Assembly (NCBI GenBank): GCA_021801795.1
Contig: JAJYXR010000006.1
Coordinates: 62,001-126,000, forward strand
Length of the DNA: 64,000 bases
DNA from: Actinomycetes bacterium
GTDB lineage: Bacteria; Actinomycetota; Acidimicrobiia; Acidimicrobiales; JAJYXR01
Direction of reading: 5' to 3'
Part shown: positions 42,529 to 55,844 of the stretch, piece after piece
Layout: every line of letters starts with the position of its first letter
Numbering within the stretch: the first letter of the stretch is position 1
Position numbers and translations under genes: made by a program
Notes under the pieces: generated by a model
Told to the model about the DNA's origin: nothing
Database searches by the model: none
The model's input: only the letters and a program-made list of their open reading frames with translations

Positions 42529-43608
42529 GTGAGAAGATGGCTGCTGCCGGCAGCAGGCCTGATGCGAGCAAAGGGCCTGCGGCGAGCAAAGGGCCTGCGG
42601 CTAGCCAAGGGCCTGCGGCGAGCAAAGGACGTGCTGCCAGCCCTTGCCGCCCTCGCTCTCGCTCTCGGTGCCGCCCTCGCTCTCGCTCTCGGTGCCGCCC
42701 TCGCTCTCGGTTCCGCCCTCGGTGCCGGGGTGCTGTCCACGCCTGCCTGGGCGGACCAGCCCTCTGCCTCCAGGCCCATCCCGGTCCCGGGGAGTGCCGA
42801 GCAGATGGTGCTCCCGAGCGCGCTGCCCGGCATGATCCTCGCGGCTGGCGCCGGGGGGAACGGGCCGGTGGATCCCTCCACCTTCGCCAGCTTCTCCCCC
42901 GACCCCCGGGCAGTCCTGAGGAGCTTCGGCGAGCTGGAGAAGGAGCCTGGGTTCAGCTCCTGGGAGCGCGTGTGGCACAGCCCGGGCTCGAACAGCGACG
43001 TGCTCGACATCGTCCTGCGGCTCGGCTCCACGGGCCAGGCAGCCGGCTTCGTGAAGAGCTTCGAGGCCTCCCTCGCGGGTGGCGGCTCCACCGCAGAGCC
43101 ATTCGCGCTAGCCGGCATACCCTCTGGCGAGGGTTTCACCATCTCGCTGGCAGCCCTAGGCGCCGGTGGTTCTCCGGGGAGGCTCCAGGTGGTCAGCTTC
43201 TACGAGGGCCATGTGGCCGTCGAGATCGCAACCGGCACCTCGCTGGCCCCGAGCGACGCCCACCCCATACCTGGCGGTGCCGTCGATCAGCTGGCCCTTC
43301 GCCAGTACCGGCTGATCGGGCTGCGCGAGGCAGCTGACGCACCCCGACCTGCCGGCGGCGGCCTCGGAGCCGGTGCCACCGTCATCGTCTTCGCGGCCGC
43401 AGCCCTCGTCGCGCTCGCCATCGTCGCCGCCCTGGGGCTTCACTTCAGGCGCCTGCGGCCGGCTCCTCGGGGCGCGCAGCCACCAGCTGTGCCGGGCTGG
43501 TACCCCGATCCCTCGGACCCCACCGGGGCACGGCTCCGCTACCACGACGGATCTGCCTGGACACGCCACCTAGCGGAGCCGCTGGAAGGCGGGCACGGCT
43601 CGGCCTGA
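42529..43608 (+). CDS. Secreted or membrane protein with DUF2510 C-terminus
   Basis: A 359-residue protein starting at GTG 42529. The N-terminus is unusual: a KGLRRA-type basic repeat (residues about 13-36) precedes a long hydrophobic ALALAL-rich signal sequence ending PAWAD, both made of tandem DNA repeats. The extracytoplasmic part (about 70-275) holds a soluble domain. A transmembrane helix at about 283-305 (ATVIVFAAAALVALAIVAALGLHF) precedes a cytoplasmic or surface DUF2510 motif (PGWYPDPSDPTGARLRYHDGSAWT). DUF2510 is a short actinobacterial domain of unknown function. The gene follows vapC by 28 bases and may be read through from it. Confidence 0.78.
   Translation: MRRWLLPAAGLMRAKGLRRAKGLRLAKGLRRAKDVLPALAALALALGAALALALGAALALGSALGAGVLSTPAWADQPSASRPIPVPGSAEQMVLPSALPGMILAAGAGGNGPVDPSTFASFSPDPRAVLRSFGELEKEPGFSSWERVWHSPGSNSDVLDIVLRLGSTGQAAGFVKSFEASLAGGGSTAEPFALAGIPSGEGFTISLAALGAGGSPGRLQVVSFYEGHVAVEIATGTSLAPSDAHPIPGGAVDQLALRQYRLIGLREAADAPRPAGGGLGAGATVIVFAAAALVALAIVAALGLHFRRLRPAPRGAQPPAVPGWYPDPSDPTGARLRYHDGSAWTRHLAEPLEGGHGSA
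42564..42635. repeat. 18-base tandem repeat, four copies, in signal region
   Basis: Two perfect units of GCGAGCAAAGGGCCTGCG, then two diverged ones. They encode the basic K-G-L-R-R-A stretch at the N-terminus of the DUF2510 protein. Confidence 0.9.
42649..42726. repeat. 24-base tandem repeat, two copies plus shortened units, in signal region
   Basis: Two perfect 24-base units (GCCCTCGCTCTCGCTCTC, then GGTGCC) are followed by 18- and 12-base shortened versions. They encode the hydrophobic Ala-Leu core of the same signal sequence, so its length could vary by slippage. Confidence 0.9.
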
Positions 43609-46441: not shown

Positions 46442-48097
46442 TCATTTGGCGCCAGAGGTGACCTTACCGGCAGACGCCATTGCCGTCTTCGCGTGGTAAC
46501 TGGAACGGGTGAGGGGGGATGCCTCCACGTGGGCGAACCCGAGCCCCATGGCGAGGTCGCGCAGCTCCTCGAACTCCTCGGGCGTCCACCAGCGCGCGAC
46601 CGGCAGGTGGGAGTCGCTCGGGCGAAGGTACTGGCCGATGGTGAGGATGTCCACGCCCACGGCTCTTAGGTCTGCGAGCACCCCCATCACCTCGTCACGC
46701 TCCTCGCCAAGTCCCACCATGATGCCCGACTTCGTGACCAGGCCGGCCTGCTTCGCTCTGGCGAGCAGGCCGAGGCTGCGAGCGTAGGAAGCTGAGGGGC
46801 GCACCCCTCGCTGAAGACGCGGGACGGTCTCCAGGTTGTGGTTCAGCACGTCGGGGCGGGCCGCGAATATCGAGTCGAGCGCGGCAGCGTTCCCCTTGCA
46901 GTCGGGGATGAGGACCTCCACCCTGCATTCGGGCAGCCTTGCCCTCACTGCGTCTATGGTCGCCGCTATAGCAGCGGCGCCCCCATCTTCGAGGTCGTCG
47001 CGTGCCACCGCGGTCACCACCACGTAGTCCAGGCCCATCCGCCAGGCAGCTTCCGCCACGCGCGCTGGCTCCCCTGGATCGAGGGCGAGAGGCCGCCTCG
47101 TGTCCACCTTGCAGAACCCGCAGGCCCTGGTGCAGCGGTCCCCGTTCACCATGAAGGTGGCAGTGCCCTCTGCCCAGCACTCGAAGATGTTCGGGCAGCC
47201 CGCCTCCTCGCACACGGTCACGAGGTCCAGGTCGCGAATGGTGGTGCCGGTCGCGAGGAAATCATCCCCCATGCGGGCAGGCACCCTGAGCCACGGAGGC
47301 TTACGGGCATGCACGGGCAGGCCACCTGAGCGGGTGCTCAGAGCACGCGACCAGGCCACGTCCTGACGCTCGACCACCCCATGGCCCCAGATGCGCGCTC
47401 CGTTCTCCACGACCCTGTCCAGGACCACTCGCATCGAGACATCCAGGCCCTCTGCCTTCAGTGAGGTGACGGCCTTGTCCGGTATGCCGCATGGGACGAT
47501 GCGCTCGAACCACTCGAGGTCGGTAGAGACGTTCAGAGCGAGCCCGTGCATCGAGCGCCCTGAGAGTAGCCGGGTGCCTATTGCGCAGACCTTCCTCGGC
47601 CAGGGTCCCTCGGGATCCACCCATACACCCGGATAGCCTTCGAGCCTGCCCACGGAGCCAAGACCTAGGTCATGGAGCGAGTCGATCACCACCTGCTCCA
47701 GGGAGTGCACGTAACCAGGCAACGCGCCCGGTGCCAGGGGGACGCTCAGGATCGGGTAGACCACCAGCTGGCCGGGCCCGTGGTAGGTGACGTCACCTCC
47801 ACGGTCGGTCCTCACCAGGCCCGCCCCGACCGAGGCCGGATCCACGAGCACGTGCGAGGGATCCCCGTGACGCCCGAGGGTGAACACGTGGGGGTGCTCT
47901 AGCGCGAGGAGGTGGTCCTCCGCGAGCGGGCTTTGCACCAGGGCACGCTGGAGCACGTAGGCCTCGTCGAATGGGACCCGCCCGAGCCAGCGCACGCGAA
48001 GCACGCCTCGGCGCCCGCCTGGGCGCCCGAGGGAGGATCCGCCCGAAGGGAACCCCGGCGCGGCACTCGTGGCAGCCTCCCGCTCAGCGGACGTCAC
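46442..48097 (-). CDS. lipB-lipA: Single-chain octanoyltransferase-lipoyl synthase (LipB-LipA fusion)
   Basis: A 551-residue protein in one uninterrupted frame (GTG 48097). Residues about 33-245 are LipB: LEHPHVFTLGRHGDPSHV, DRGGDVTYHGPGQLVVYPI, RKVCAIG with catalytic Lys at about 167, and IVPCGI with catalytic Cys at about 202. Residues about 275-545 are LipA, a radical SAM enzyme: auxiliary-cluster cysteines CEEAGCPNIFEC, SAM-cluster CTRACGFC, and C-terminal RSSYHA. LipB moves octanoate from ACP to the E2 lipoyl lysine; LipA inserts two sulfurs. The E2 gene ends seven bases upstream, so enzyme and substrate are co-expressed. A basic Arg/Pro linker joins the domains. Confidence 0.94.
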   Translation of the reverse strand: MTSAEREAATSAAPGFPSGGSSLGRPGGRRGVLRVRWLGRVPFDEAYVLQRALVQSPLAEDHLLALEHPHVFTLGRHGDPSHVLVDPASVGAGLVRTDRGGDVTYHGPGQLVVYPILSVPLAPGALPGYVHSLEQVVIDSLHDLGLGSVGRLEGYPGVWVDPEGPWPRKVCAIGTRLLSGRSMHGLALNVSTDLEWFERIVPCGIPDKAVTSLKAEGLDVSMRVVLDRVVENGARIWGHGVVERQDVAWSRALSTRSGGLPVHARKPPWLRVPARMGDDFLATGTTIRDLDLVTVCEEAGCPNIFECWAEGTATFMVNGDRCTRACGFCKVDTRRPLALDPGEPARVAEAAWRMGLDYVVVTAVARDDLEDGGAAAIAATIDAVRARLPECRVEVLIPDCKGNAAALDSIFAARPDVLNHNLETVPRLQRGVRPSASYARSLGLLARAKQAGLVTKSGIMVGLGEERDEVMGVLADLRAVGVDILTIGQYLRPSDSHLPVARWWTPEEFEELRDLAMGLGFAHVEASPLTRSSYHAKTAMASAGKVTSGAK

Positions 48098-48103
48098 CGG
48101 CCG

Positions 48104-49546
48104 CTAGAGCTCTGCGGCCCAGTCATGGGTGGCAAGGATCTCGGCGACCCTGGCCACGAAGGCCGCAGCATAGGCACCGTCCACCGCACGATGGTCCCAG
48201 GACAGGCAGAGCATACCCATCGAATGGATGGCGATGGCCTCGGTGCCATCCGGCCCGGTGACCACCACGGGCCGGCGCTTCACGCCGTCGGAGGAGAGGA
48301 TTCCCACCTGCGGCTGGTTGATTATCGGAGCGGTTATGACGGTGCCATAGGAACCGACGTTCGTAATGGAGAAGGTACCCCCGGAGATGTCGTCGGCAGA
48401 GAGCTTCCTGCTCCGCGCTCTCTGACCAAGGTCGTTTATCCGCCGGGCCATGCCCCGAAGCGTCAGCTCCTCCGCACGGTGCACCACCGGGACTATGAGC
48501 CCCGCATGGTCGAGGTCGACCGCTATGCCGAGGTTCACGCCGTGGTGGACGATGAGCGAGTCCTCGCCCACCGACGCGTTCAGGTGCGGCCACTCACCGA
48601 GAGCCTCCACGGTCGCCCGGGCCACGAAGGGCAGGTAGGTGAGCGAGAAGCCCTCCTCTGCCCGGAAGCGCTCCCTCGCCTCCAGGCGCACCCGCTCGAC
48701 CGCCTCGTAGTCTGCTTCCAGGACCACGAGGGCATGGGCAGAGGTGGCCCTGGAGCGCACCATGTGCTCTGCGGTGCGCCGCCTGATGTTGTCGAAGGGG
48801 ACCACCTCGTCGGCACCTGCCAGCGCACCGGGCGACGCACCTCCCGACGCACCTCCCGCCGCGCCACCCGCTGCAGGCAGAGGCGCTGGCGTGGCAGCTA
48901 CGGCTGCGGGCACCGCTGCGGTAGCTGCCGCTGGGACTGACGCTGGGACTGACGCTGGCCTCCCGGGTGCGCCACCGCTACGGCGCCCGTCTATGGCGGC
49001 CAGCACGTCTGCGCGGGTTATCCGGCCACCGGGACCGCTCCCACTCAGCTCCGAAGCCTCGATGGCGTTCTCTGCCATGAGGCGGCGCACCACCGGGGAC
49101 AGGGGGCCGGACGGTTCAGCTCCCCGAGCGGCAGGCGGCGGAGCCGGAACGGGCGCGCCTAGGGGGGGTGCCGGTCCCCGAGTCGGGGGTGGAGTCGGCA
49201 CTGCAGGAGCTGGAGCCGGGGGTGACGCCGGTGCAGGCGGTGGAGGTGGCACCGGAGGCGGGGCGGCTGTGGGAGGTGCCGCAGGGGGGGCCTCGGCCGA
49301 GGATCCGGAGGCACCGTCCGCGATGACGGCCAGCACGGTGCCGACGTCGACGGTCTCGCCCTCGGGGACGCGGATCTCCAGGAGGCTTCCGGCAGCGGGC
49401 GAGGGCACCTCGGAGTCGACCTTGTCGGTGGAGACCTCGAAGAGAGGCTCGTCGCGCTCCACCTGGTCGCCCACGGATTTCAGCCAGCGGGTGATGGTCC
49501 CCTCGGTTACCGTCTCACCCAGTTGGGGCATGAGGACGTCAGCCAA
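48104..49546 (-). CDS. Dihydrolipoamide acyltransferase (E2) of a 2-oxoacid dehydrogenase
   Basis: A 480-residue E2 starting at TTG 49546, overlapping the lpd stop by eight bases. The lipoyl domain (1-75) has EVSTDKVDSEVPSPAAG with the lipoylated Lys at about 42. An Ala/Pro/Gly linker follows, then a peripheral-subunit-binding domain (about 145-185: VRRLMAENAI and GRITRADVLAAI). A second Ala-rich linker precedes the catalytic domain (about 245-480), which ends near SWDHRAVDGAYAAAF with His and Asp of the active site. It transfers acyl groups to CoA. Which E1 it serves is unclear: AceE at 58762-61467 is the nearest, but 2-oxoglutarate or branched-chain use is possible. Confidence 0.93.
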   Translation of the reverse strand: MADVLMPQLGETVTEGTITRWLKSVGDQVERDEPLFEVSTDKVDSEVPSPAAGSLLEIRVPEGETVDVGTVLAVIADGASGSSAEAPPAAPPTAAPPPVPPPPPAPASPPAPAPAVPTPPPTRGPAPPLGAPVPAPPPAARGAEPSGPLSPVVRRLMAENAIEASELSGSGPGGRITRADVLAAIDGRRSGGAPGRPASVPASVPAAATAAVPAAVAATPAPLPAAGGAAGGASGGASPGALAGADEVVPFDNIRRRTAEHMVRSRATSAHALVVLEADYEAVERVRLEARERFRAEEGFSLTYLPFVARATVEALGEWPHLNASVGEDSLIVHHGVNLGIAVDLDHAGLIVPVVHRAEELTLRGMARRINDLGQRARSRKLSADDISGGTFSITNVGSYGTVITAPIINQPQVGILSSDGVKRRPVVVTGPDGTEAIAIHSMGMLCLSWDHRAVDGAYAAAFVARVAEILATHDWAAEL

Positions 49547-50945
49547 CGTGCAACCCCCTTCCTGTAAGGGCCATCACGGTCTCACCGAAGGCCTCCGAGA
49601 GCGTCGGGTGGGGCTGGACGAACTGGGCGACCTCGTCTGGCGTGGCTTCCCAGTTCACCGCCAGGTAGCCCTGTCCGAGCTGCTCTGTGACCCACGGGCC
49701 GACCATGTGGACACCGAGGATCCGGCCGGCGCGACCGTCTGGAAGCCGCTCCGCGACGACCTTCACCAGGCCGTCGGTCTCGTCGAGTATCCGGGCACGG
49801 CTGTTGCCGCCGAAGGGGTCGCGCTGGACCACGACGTCGAGTCCCTGCTCTCGCGCTGCATCCTCGGTGATGCCGACGAAGGCGACCTCGGGGTGTGAGT
49901 AGATGCACCATGGCACCCGGGAGTAGTCCACCGGGACCACCGGCTCTCCGAGCATGCCCTTCACGGCCAGGATCCCCTCTGCGAAGCCGACATGGGCGAG
50001 CTGGGGCGTGGCGACGAGGTCACCGACTGCCCATACGCCCTCGGCCCCGGTGCGCATCCAGGGATCGACGTCGACGAAGCCGGCCTGGTCGATCTTCACG
50101 CCTGTCTCGCCATCGACGAGTCCCTCGGTGGCAGGGCGCCTGCCCACGGACACCACCACCGCATCCACGTCCACTGATTCATCTTCGCCGAACTCCAGCC
50201 GCGTCCCCGACGATCCCGGCTGGTGGCCCCGTACCGATGTGCCGGTGTGGACAGCGATCCCACGCTTCCTGAAGGATCTGGCCACCACCGATACTACGTC
50301 CGCATCGCACGCAGCGAGCAGCGTGGGCAGGGCTTCGAGGACAGTCACCTTAGATCCGAGGTCGCTGAACATGGACGCGAACTCGCAGCCGATGGCGCCA
50401 CCGCCTATGACGGCGACGGAAGCCGGAAGATGGTCGAGGCTCAGGACCTCGTCCGAGGTGAGCACCACGCGACCGTCGACATCGAAGCCTGGAATGGTCC
50501 TCGGCAGGGAACCAGCTGCCAGCACGACATGGCGACCAGCTATCTCCTGGGACGAGCCGCTGGCGCTCACACGCACCCGGCGACCGGCGAGCAGGGTCCC
50601 GGTCCCACTGAAGGTCGTCACTCCCCTGCCCTTCAGCAGCCCCTCCAGGCCCCGGTGGAGCTGGTCGACCACCTTCTGCTTACGGGTCTGGCTCGTCGCG
50701 AAGTCGACCGAGAGGCTCGATGCGCTCACGCCGAAGACCTCCGCGCGCGAGACGGTCCTCATCACGCTGGCCGTCTCCAGGAACTCCTTGGCGGGCACGC
50801 AGCCACGATGCAGGCAGGTGCCGCCGACCTTGTCACGCTCGACCAGGGCCACGGACAGCCCTGCCGCAGCACCGTAGAGCGCGGTGGCATATCCACCTGG
50901 GCCGCCGCCTATTACTACGACGTCGAACTGCTCTTGTGCAGACGT
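49539..50945 (-). CDS. lpd: Dihydrolipoamide dehydrogenase (E3) with apparent ACG start
   Basis: A 468-residue E3. The FAD motif VVVIGGGPGGYATA lies upstream of the first GTG (50852), so that GTG cannot be the true start. Reading back in frame to the stop at 50972-50970, no ATG, GTG or TTG occurs. The ACG at 50945 gives TSAQEQFDVVVIGGG, exactly where MSAQEQF would be expected, with GGGAGAGAG a few bases upstream. Other motifs: GGTCLHRGC redox Cys pair, GGGAIGCEFA for NAD, and HPTLSEAFGE with the catalytic His-Glu. It reoxidises the E2 dihydrolipoyl arm. It is the first gene of the lpd-E2-lipBA-SDR operon. Confidence 0.9.
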   Translation of the reverse strand, partial: TSAQEQFDVVVIGGGPGGYATALYGAAAGLSVALVERDKVGGTCLHRGCVPAKEFLETASVMRTVSRAEVFGVSASSLSVDFATSQTRKQKVVDQLHRGLEGLLKGRGVTTFSGTGTLLAGRRVRVSASGSSQEIAGRHVVLAAGSLPRTIPGFDVDGRVVLTSDEVLSLDHLPASVAVIGGGAIGCEFASMFSDLGSKVTVLEALPTLLAACDADVVSVVARSFRKRGIAVHTGTSVRGHQPGSSGTRLEFGEDESVDVDAVVVSVGRRPATEGLVDGETGVKIDQAGFVDVDPWMRTGAEGVWAVGDLVATPQLAHVGFAEGILAVKGMLGEPVVPVDYSRVPWCIYSHPEVAFVGITEDAAREQGLDVVVQRDPFGGNSRARILDETDGLVKVVAERLPDGRAGRILGVHMVGPWVTEQLGQGYLAVNWEATPDEVAQFVQPHPTLSEAFGETVMALTGRGLHVG

Positions 50946-53513: not shown

Positions 53514-55844
53514 CTAGCCGAGAACGCCGCCAGCCGATAGCAGGCTCCCTATCGCCGCCTGGTCGACGGGGCGCGAGAAGTAGTAGCCCTGCGCGAGGTG
53601 ACAGCCGAGAGACAGGAGTGGCTCCACCTGGAACGCCTGCTCGACTCCCTCCGCGACCATCTCCAGGTCCATCGCCCGCGCCAGGGCGGCCACGGCGTCG
53701 AGGACGGGCACCGCGCCCTGACCCAGCCAGTCTACGAATGACTTGTCGATCTTCAGGACGTCGAAGGGCACGCTGGCCAGGAACGAGAGCGAGGAGTAGC
53801 CAGTTCCGAAATCGTCGAGCCCGAGCTTCACGCCCATGGACTTCAGCTCCGCGAGCCTGGATAGAGCCCCCGCGATCTCAGCCACGAACACGCTCTCGGT
53901 GACCTCGATCACCAGCGCACAGGCCGGCAGGCCCGATGTCTCCAGTGCCCTGGCTACGTCTTCGAGCACCTCGGCATGCTCCAGCTGGCGCCCCGAGAGG
54001 TTCACGTGAACCGTCATGTCGGCAGCCTCTGGCTGCTCGTCACGCCACCTGGCCACGTCGCTGCAGGCCTGGGCAAGCATGAAGCGCCCCAGGGGTATCA
54101 CCAGGCCGCTCTCCTCCGCCGCCTCGAGGAACGCCGCTGGAGCCAGCAGCCCTCTCGTGGGATGCTCCCAGCGGACCAGGGCCTCCACCCCTACCATCCT
54201 CCCCTCCGGAAGGGTGACCAGCGGCTGGTACAGGGCACGTAGCTCGCTCCTCTCCAGTGCCCTGTGCAGGCCTGCCACAGTCTCCAGCCGCTCGGAGGCT
54301 GCGACGGCCATCGCCTGGTCGAACATCTCGCTGCGGCCCCGCCCCGCAGCCTTCGCCCGGTACATTGCCGCGTCCGCGTACTGCAGCACCATGCCGGCAT
54401 CGTCCCTGGAGGCGCCAAGCACTACCCCGACGCTCGCGGACAGGTACACCTCGTCCCCGCCCACCACGAAGGGGCGATCGAATGCCTCCACGATGCTCCC
54501 GGAGAACGACCTCGCCGCATCGAGACCTCCGAGTCCTTCTGCCAGCAGAGCGAACTCGTCGCCAGAGAAGCGGGCCAGCACCGGCGGATCTGCCAAGGCG
54601 CCGCTCGAAGACCCCGCCGTGTGGGCCGTCTGGGCCGTCTGGGCCGTCTGGGCCGTCTGGGCCGTCTGGGCCGTGTGAGCCGCGGTGAGTGCGCTGAGAC
54701 GTCGGGCCACCTCGACAAGGAGCAGATCACCAGTGGCGTGACCTCGGCTGTCGTTCACGAGCCTGAAGTGGTCGATGTCGACGAAGCAGACGGTGACCGG
54801 TGGAAGACCGGCACCGGCTCGAACGAGGGCGCTCTCCAGGTGCTCGACGAATGCCGTGCGGTTCAGCAGCCCCGTCAGGCGATCATGGTTGGCCCGGAAG
54901 GCCAGCTCCTCAGCGGCACGCCTACGTTCAGTGGTGTCACGTGTGGCAGCCACGACGTAGGTCTCTCCACATGCCTCGACGGCTGAGAGGCTGATCTCGG
55001 CCGGGAACTCCGTGCCGTCCGCGCGAAGCCCGGTCACCTCCAGGGGCGCCCGGCAGCGCCGCTCGGCGTGGGCTTCTACGAACCTGCGAACGTGGGCCGA
55101 ATGCCTCACGCGCAGGTGGCTGGGTACCAGGACGCCTACGGAGCTGCCGATCAGCTCCTCGGGGCGATATCCGAACACCGAAGCACAGGGCGCGCTCGCC
55201 TCGACTATCACTCCGGCGTGGTCGACGACCACCAGCGCGTCCGGCGTAGCCAGGAGCAGGGCCTCAAGGCGCGCACGGCCCAGCCGCTCGCGCCGTAGCA
55301 GGGTGGCGCTCTCGAGCACCCTGCTCCCGTGGGCAGCCAAGGTCTCGACAGCCGCTACCTCGCGGTCGCTGAATGGACGTCGGTCGAGGAAACCGACTGC
55401 CAGGACCGCTGCGATGCTGCCCTCGACCCACAGCGGAGCTGCCATGGCAGCCTTCACCCCCAGGGAGACCAGACCCGGAGTGGCATCGGGCATGAGGTCG
55501 TAGTCGGGCACCACCACGCTTCTGCGAGCGGCCAGCACACGGCCGGGCATGCCTACGGATATGGGGTGCTCCGTGGTCGACAGCTCTCCGGATAGGCCGT
55601 GGGAGATCTCGTATCGATAGGTCGATGTGCCGGGGTCGATCTTGCACACGGTGACGATCGAGAAACCGAAGGAGGCTGCCGTCTCGACCACGGCCACAAG
55701 CACCTCGTCGGGGTCCGCAGTTCCGATGTGGCGTCCGAGCCCGGCGATCTGCTCCCAGGCCATGTCCGCCACTGGTAACGACATCTCCTGCAGTGAGCCA
55801 CCATCTGCGCGAGGCGGTGGCTCGCGTCCTGGCTCGTGGCCCAT
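53514..55844 (-). CDS. GAF-PAS-GGDEF-EAL cyclic-di-GMP signalling protein
   Basis: A 776-residue protein from ATG 55844, which has a strong GGGAGGGGAG site directly upstream; the frame extends 16 codons further without one. Domains: GAF (about 30-185), PAS (190-305: DALVVVDHAGVIVEAS), GGDEF (310-510) and EAL (515-765). The GGDEF signature is FSGDEF, Gly to Ser at position one, and no RxxD inhibitory site precedes it. EALVRWEHP, DDFGTGYSSL and the other EAL metal residues look intact, so phosphodiesterase activity is more likely than synthesis. A QTA/HTA repeat of about 21 residues sits inside the GGDEF domain. No membrane segment; cytoplasmic sensor. Confidence 0.92.
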   Translation of the reverse strand: MGHEPGREPPPRADGGSLQEMSLPVADMAWEQIAGLGRHIGTADPDEVLVAVVETAASFGFSIVTVCKIDPGTSTYRYEISHGLSGELSTTEHPISVGMPGRVLAARRSVVVPDYDLMPDATPGLVSLGVKAAMAAPLWVEGSIAAVLAVGFLDRRPFSDREVAAVETLAAHGSRVLESATLLRRERLGRARLEALLLATPDALVVVDHAGVIVEASAPCASVFGYRPEELIGSSVGVLVPSHLRVRHSAHVRRFVEAHAERRCRAPLEVTGLRADGTEFPAEISLSAVEACGETYVVAATRDTTERRRAAEELAFRANHDRLTGLLNRTAFVEHLESALVRAGAGLPPVTVCFVDIDHFRLVNDSRGHATGDLLLVEVARRLSALTAAHTAQTAQTAQTAQTAQTAHTAGSSSGALADPPVLARFSGDEFALLAEGLGGLDAARSFSGSIVEAFDRPFVVGGDEVYLSASVGVVLGASRDDAGMVLQYADAAMYRAKAAGRGRSEMFDQAMAVAASERLETVAGLHRALERSELRALYQPLVTLPEGRMVGVEALVRWEHPTRGLLAPAAFLEAAEESGLVIPLGRFMLAQACSDVARWRDEQPEAADMTVHVNLSGRQLEHAEVLEDVARALETSGLPACALVIEVTESVFVAEIAGALSRLAELKSMGVKLGLDDFGTGYSSLSFLASVPFDVLKIDKSFVDWLGQGAVPVLDAVAALARAMDLEMVAEGVEQAFQVEPLLSLGCHLAQGYYFSRPVDQAAIGSLLSAGGVLG
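54619..54681. repeat. 9-base tandem repeat, seven copies, inside GGDEF domain
   Basis: Five perfect GTCTGGGCC units flanked by two one- or two-base variants. They encode a Thr-Ala-Gln/His three-residue repeat of the GGDEF-EAL protein on the minus strand, just before the SGDEF signature. Copy changes stay in frame. Confidence 0.92.

Follow-up and report, generated by a model that had tools for sequence, protein, structure and literature searches.

Background

The octanoyltransferase LipB and the lipoyl synthase LipA carry out reactions whose chemistry is established for both families. In other Actinomycetota the two genes usually form an adjacent pair with the same order and pathway as the locus studied here, but a stop keeps them separate, and the lipBA operon of Shewanella likewise has this gene order and pathway in two genes separated by a stop (PMC4398509). 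In the bifunctional lipoate-protein ligase/lipoyl synthase described by the NCBIfam model NF053790 (LplA_LipA_fuse), an acyl-attaching enzyme also stands ahead of LipA; however, the enzyme at its N-terminus is not LipB but an ATP-dependent ligase of the LplA type.

We analyzed a stretch of 64,000 nucleotides (the window) from an actinobacterium of the class Acidimicrobiia, in which an earlier note had pointed to one gene, lipBA, for a single LipB-LipA chain. The protein has in common with LipB (M. tuberculosis 1W66 and the E. coli enzyme) the fold, the Lys/Cys dyad and the RGG and HGPGQ motifs, but bears a LipA domain at the C-terminus of the same chain. With LipA (M. tuberculosis 5EXI-5EXK and human LIAS) it shares the six cluster cysteines and RSSYxA; in contrast, no separate start is evident for its LipA part, the N-terminal segment of which is absorbed into the linker. 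As a candidate member of NF053790 the protein was rejected, since its score of 348 bits is below the cut-off of 800 and covers only model positions 328-605, that is, the LipA part. A search of the open literature, with most subscription journals outside its scope, returned no description of a LipB-LipA fusion. Automatic annotation of such fusions in databases is likely (compare the UniProt 'multifunctional fusion protein' entries). What is new is the arrangement, a class-wide domain fusion of apparently single origin; both enzymes are known and canonical.

Structure of the lipBA locus

The lipBA gene is a single open reading frame of 551 codons that encodes a complete LipB followed by a complete LipA (Table 1). 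In its product, Pfam recognizes LplA-B_cat at residues 49-231 and LIAS_N plus Radical_SAM at residues 263-475. The protein passes the NCBIfam equivalog models of both enzymes, with 136.8 bits for LipB (TIGR00214, cut-off 83.55) and 350 bits for LipA (TIGR00510, cut-off 310.25), and the cut-off of a further LipB equivalog (NF010925) is likewise exceeded. In M. tuberculosis LipB the catalytic dyad is Lys142/Cys176 (PMC9307952), and alignment with 1W66 places the corresponding residues at K169 and C203. The LipA part contains the CX4CX5C motif of the auxiliary cluster (C296/C301/C307), the CX3CX2C motif of the radical SAM cluster (C322/C326/C329) and a C-terminal RSSY motif (RSSYHA, 531-536). The eight residues formed by the dyad and the cysteines, and also S532 and S533, show no variation among 44 aligned fused proteins, and the six-cysteine pattern is present in 99 of 99. 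The claim of the earlier note that one chain holds both enzymes with intact motifs is thus confirmed by the frame, the two sets of profiles and the aligned residues.

Table 1. Positions of the lipBA gene, its domains and the adjoining genes in the window
Feature	Position	Strand	Remarks
lipBA fusion gene	46442..48097	(-)	GTG start at 48097; alternative GTG possible at 48004; conserved class-wide
LipB octanoyltransferase domain, about residues 32-237, dyad K169 and C203	47387..48004	(-)	Profiles; 1W66 alignment and fold match
Interdomain linker, about residues 238-262, with putative remnant of the LipA N-terminal segment	47312..47386	(-)	Short in the family of the window
LipA lipoyl synthase domain, residues 263-545	46463..47311	(-)	Profiles; six cysteines; RSSYHA; fold match
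E2 acyltransferase gene (one lipoyl domain, one E3-binding domain, catalytic domain)	48104..49546	(-)	Likely substrate
lpd, dihydrolipoyl dehydrogenase (E3)	49539..50945	(-)	Full frame needs an ACG start at 50945

Since most relatives begin near the position aligned with residue 32 (consensus MLRxRWLGRV), and residues 1-30 are of low confidence in the AlphaFold model, the true start may be V32, which would give a protein of about 520 amino acids. The choice of start codon has no effect on the fusion.

The placement of lipBA inside an lpd-E2 operon, with the E3 gene one gene further away, holds: the genes run lpd, E2, lipBA, with an overlap between E2 and the end of lpd. The gap between E2 and lipBA, given before as seven bases, is of six bases from the E2 stop to the GTG start. 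Among fused loci with enough flanking sequence, lpd was upstream in all 36, and E2 was directly upstream in 74 of 80, the remaining six having no adjacent E2 match; E2 adjacency was rare in the split loci with flank. As for lpd itself, its listed frame starts at a GTG (50852) that lies inside the protein, and the upstream part occupies 50852-50945 (-). No ATG, GTG or TTG is found in this frame ahead of the GxGxxG motif, and the likeliest start is the ACG at 50945, preceded by GGGAGAGAG; either this ACG is used as the start or the sequence contains a base error.

Distribution of the fusion

The earlier note had suggested looking in genomes for other LipB-LipA single chains, and these were found in nearly every member of the class sampled. 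Within the order we surveyed 58 relatives, nearly all from different families, counting genomes with enough contig and taking as fused either one match or two matches with equal open-frame length; both domains were in one frame in every assessable genome. For the class, 148 genomes were drawn, and the LipA and LipB parts were used as separate queries. Both domains were present in 137, and all 137 were consistent with the fusion. One open frame was common to the two domains in 129 of these, and in the other eight the open-frame lengths differed between domains. Four of the eight were read directly and are fused (loci L115, L116, L117 and L122), and the other four (genomes G100, G111, G132 and G185), which are congeneric with one of the genomes read, have a LipB frame of 551 codons, long enough for both domains.

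Outside the class, about 100-136 Actinomycetota genomes were drawn and none showed a frame shared by LipB and LipA. All 20 loci read there were split, 19 of them with lipB directly before lipA. The taxa are given by the named records: the fused loci come from Acidimicrobiia, Acidimicrobiales, Acidimicrobiaceae or loosely labeled actinobacteria, and the sources of the split loci include Mycobacterium, Nocardia, Streptomyces and Cellulomonas; one fused record labeled Acidobacteria sits among Acidimicrobiaceae in the tree. These named loci are biased to same-frame neighbors, the two genes of nearly every split locus being in frame, and for this reason prevalence was taken from the genome draws only. 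A plasmid search for further fusions found none among the best 20 matches.

These results show that the LipB-LipA fusion is a real inherited arrangement of the class. That an assembly or sequencing error, or a missed stop, had joined two genes was the condition under which the earlier note would have been refuted, and beyond the origin of the finding in a single window nothing speaks for it. Such an error is excluded, and we give it a negligible probability, because the same open fusion recurs in more than 130 independent genomes, including the single-contig genomes G007, G033 and G060.

Two class genomes presented additional features. G106 carries, besides the fusion, a second and split lipB-lipA pair with a short overlap (contig C83, L118), located downstream of an E2 of its own; L118 falls outside the fused clade, so it would represent transfer or contamination. 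In G142 (contig C15, L121) there is a lone LipB with no LipA after it, and no LipA match was obtained in that genome.

Origin and predicted structure

In a tree built on concatenated LipB and LipA, 44 fused and 33 split sequences were parted by one branch (bootstrap 98, SH-aLRT 97). The linker between the PCG motif of LipB and the RKPxW motif of LipA varied more than two-fold in length among the fused proteins, from 55 to 131 residues, and its conservation was low (0.49, versus 0.66 and 0.75 in the two domains). Among the relatives, the linker consensus includes RPLLRRLRxAGV...RKPEW, which by eye matches the N-terminus of split actinobacterial LipA, and because of this correspondence the linker probably consists of the old intergenic stretch plus the N-terminus of LipA. 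In the window and its nearest kin the linker is shortened and lacks most of that motif. Both the tree and the linker are consistent with a single fusion event in the class ancestor, and the most likely course would be that the lipB stop was lost once in an ancestral lipB-lipA pair, in the common ancestor of Acidimicrobiia.

The AlphaFold model of the two-domain chain of the window reached a pTM of 0.90 with the domains packed confidently, and that of a relative with 53% identity, whose linker is disordered, a pTM of 0.89. In the model of the window, linker residues 251-260 had a pLDDT of 67. The LipB part matches the fold of M. tuberculosis LipB (1W66), and the LipA part that of M. tuberculosis LipA (5EXK), to which it is 53% identical. 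A pTM that high is difficult to attain without a confident prediction of how the domains are placed relative to each other, which makes a docked arrangement with a LipB-LipA contact plausible. The more than two-fold variation in linker length argues against a rigid geometry or a tunnel set by the linker.

Other lipoylation genes of the genome

The genome, which is 92% complete, yielded one LipA and three LplA/LipB-like catalytic domains, namely that of the fusion and those of two LplA-like proteins with weak matches to ligase models and none to any LipB model. No second LipA or LipB was found, in a genome whose incompleteness means that a copy could be missing. GcvH, which is also a lipoyl substrate, is encoded on a different contig. 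The earlier note had placed the enzyme beside its own substrate. This stands in that E2 adjoins lipBA; however, with no other LipA or LipB found and GcvH encoded elsewhere, the fusion is unlikely to be private to the neighboring E2 and should serve GcvH as well, unless GcvH uses a ligase. On contig C3 of the same genome, an LplA-like protein (L004, 1168-2112 (-)) has a DHP(R/Q)TP repeat array in its C-terminal part.

Function of the fused protein

We believe that lipBA very probably encodes a bifunctional enzyme of lipoyl-cofactor assembly, a reading that draws on its sequence and on the families it belongs to. The LipB domain would transfer octanoate from octanoyl-ACP through C203 to the lysine in the lipoyl domain of E2 or GcvH, and the LipA domain would afterwards insert two sulphurs by radical SAM chemistry. 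The chemistry of the fused enzyme is probably the ordinary one, and the main effects of the fusion would most likely be a fixed one-to-one production of the two activities and the nearness of both active sites, with the octanoylated lipoyl domain that leaves LipB being already next to LipA. We infer activity of both domains, an uncleaved chain and a role for nearness.

A substantial possibility, although one we put somewhat below an even chance, is that the fusion is neutral, so that adjacent co-translated genes lost a stop and the product is two independent enzymes on a string that gain nothing from nearness. That lipB and lipA were already neighbors in sister classes fits this, as does a linker so variable in length and so much less conserved than the domains it joins. 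On the other hand, both AlphaFold models set the domains confidently against each other, and none of the 137 class genomes with both domains was seen to have reverted to separate genes, though stops are easily gained; descent alone could explain this retention. In the channeling idea put forward in the earlier note, the fusion would be a dedicated device for the neighboring E2, octanoyl-E2 being passed from LipB to LipA without release. The common position of E2 directly upstream and the packed models are in line with such a device, but we consider it quite improbable, given that GcvH also needs lipoylation in a genome where no other LipA or LipB was found, and that six of the fused loci have no adjacent E2 match.

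The two working enzymes would be separate if the chain were cut after synthesis or if LipA were also made alone from an internal start. The linker of the window does contain a weak AGGTGG, resembling a ribosome site, followed after 7 nt by an in-frame GTG, at about residue 262, and in a relative the linker is predicted to be disordered. This GTG is a weak candidate for the production of some free LipA. However, a search for a conserved internal lipA start gave a signal in 5% of linkers versus 7% of control windows, compared with 8 of 26 true split lipA starts, and with internal signals no commoner in linkers than in controls we regard separate enzymes as very improbable. As to a stronger form of the bifunctional reading, in which LipB and LipA would dock in a fixed arrangement and hand over the octanoylated lipoyl domain unreleased, by a contact also used by the separate enzymes elsewhere, the models are suggestive and we hold it to be unlikely. 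Co-production and nearness are what we favor for the bifunctional enzyme, and a true hand-over is a possibility.

To our knowledge, the physical closeness of separate LipB and LipA enzymes has not been established. A fusion retained throughout a class is evidence of the 'Rosetta stone' type that the two work physically close, and it provides one purifiable protein for measuring how octanoyl transfer hands over to sulphur insertion. In addition, its gene structure can serve to mark Acidimicrobiia, and for other actinobacteria, with their adjacent genes, it offers a structural lead to a LipB-LipA contact that may exist there.

Repeats elsewhere in the window

Two repeat regions lie in other genes of the window. 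At 54616-54682, the gene of a predicted GGDEF-EAL protein contains 7.4 copies of a 9-base tandem repeat encoding AQT repeats, and at 42556-42709, tandem repeats of 18 and 24 bases at the start of the frame 42529-43608 encode AKGLR and ALALGA units.
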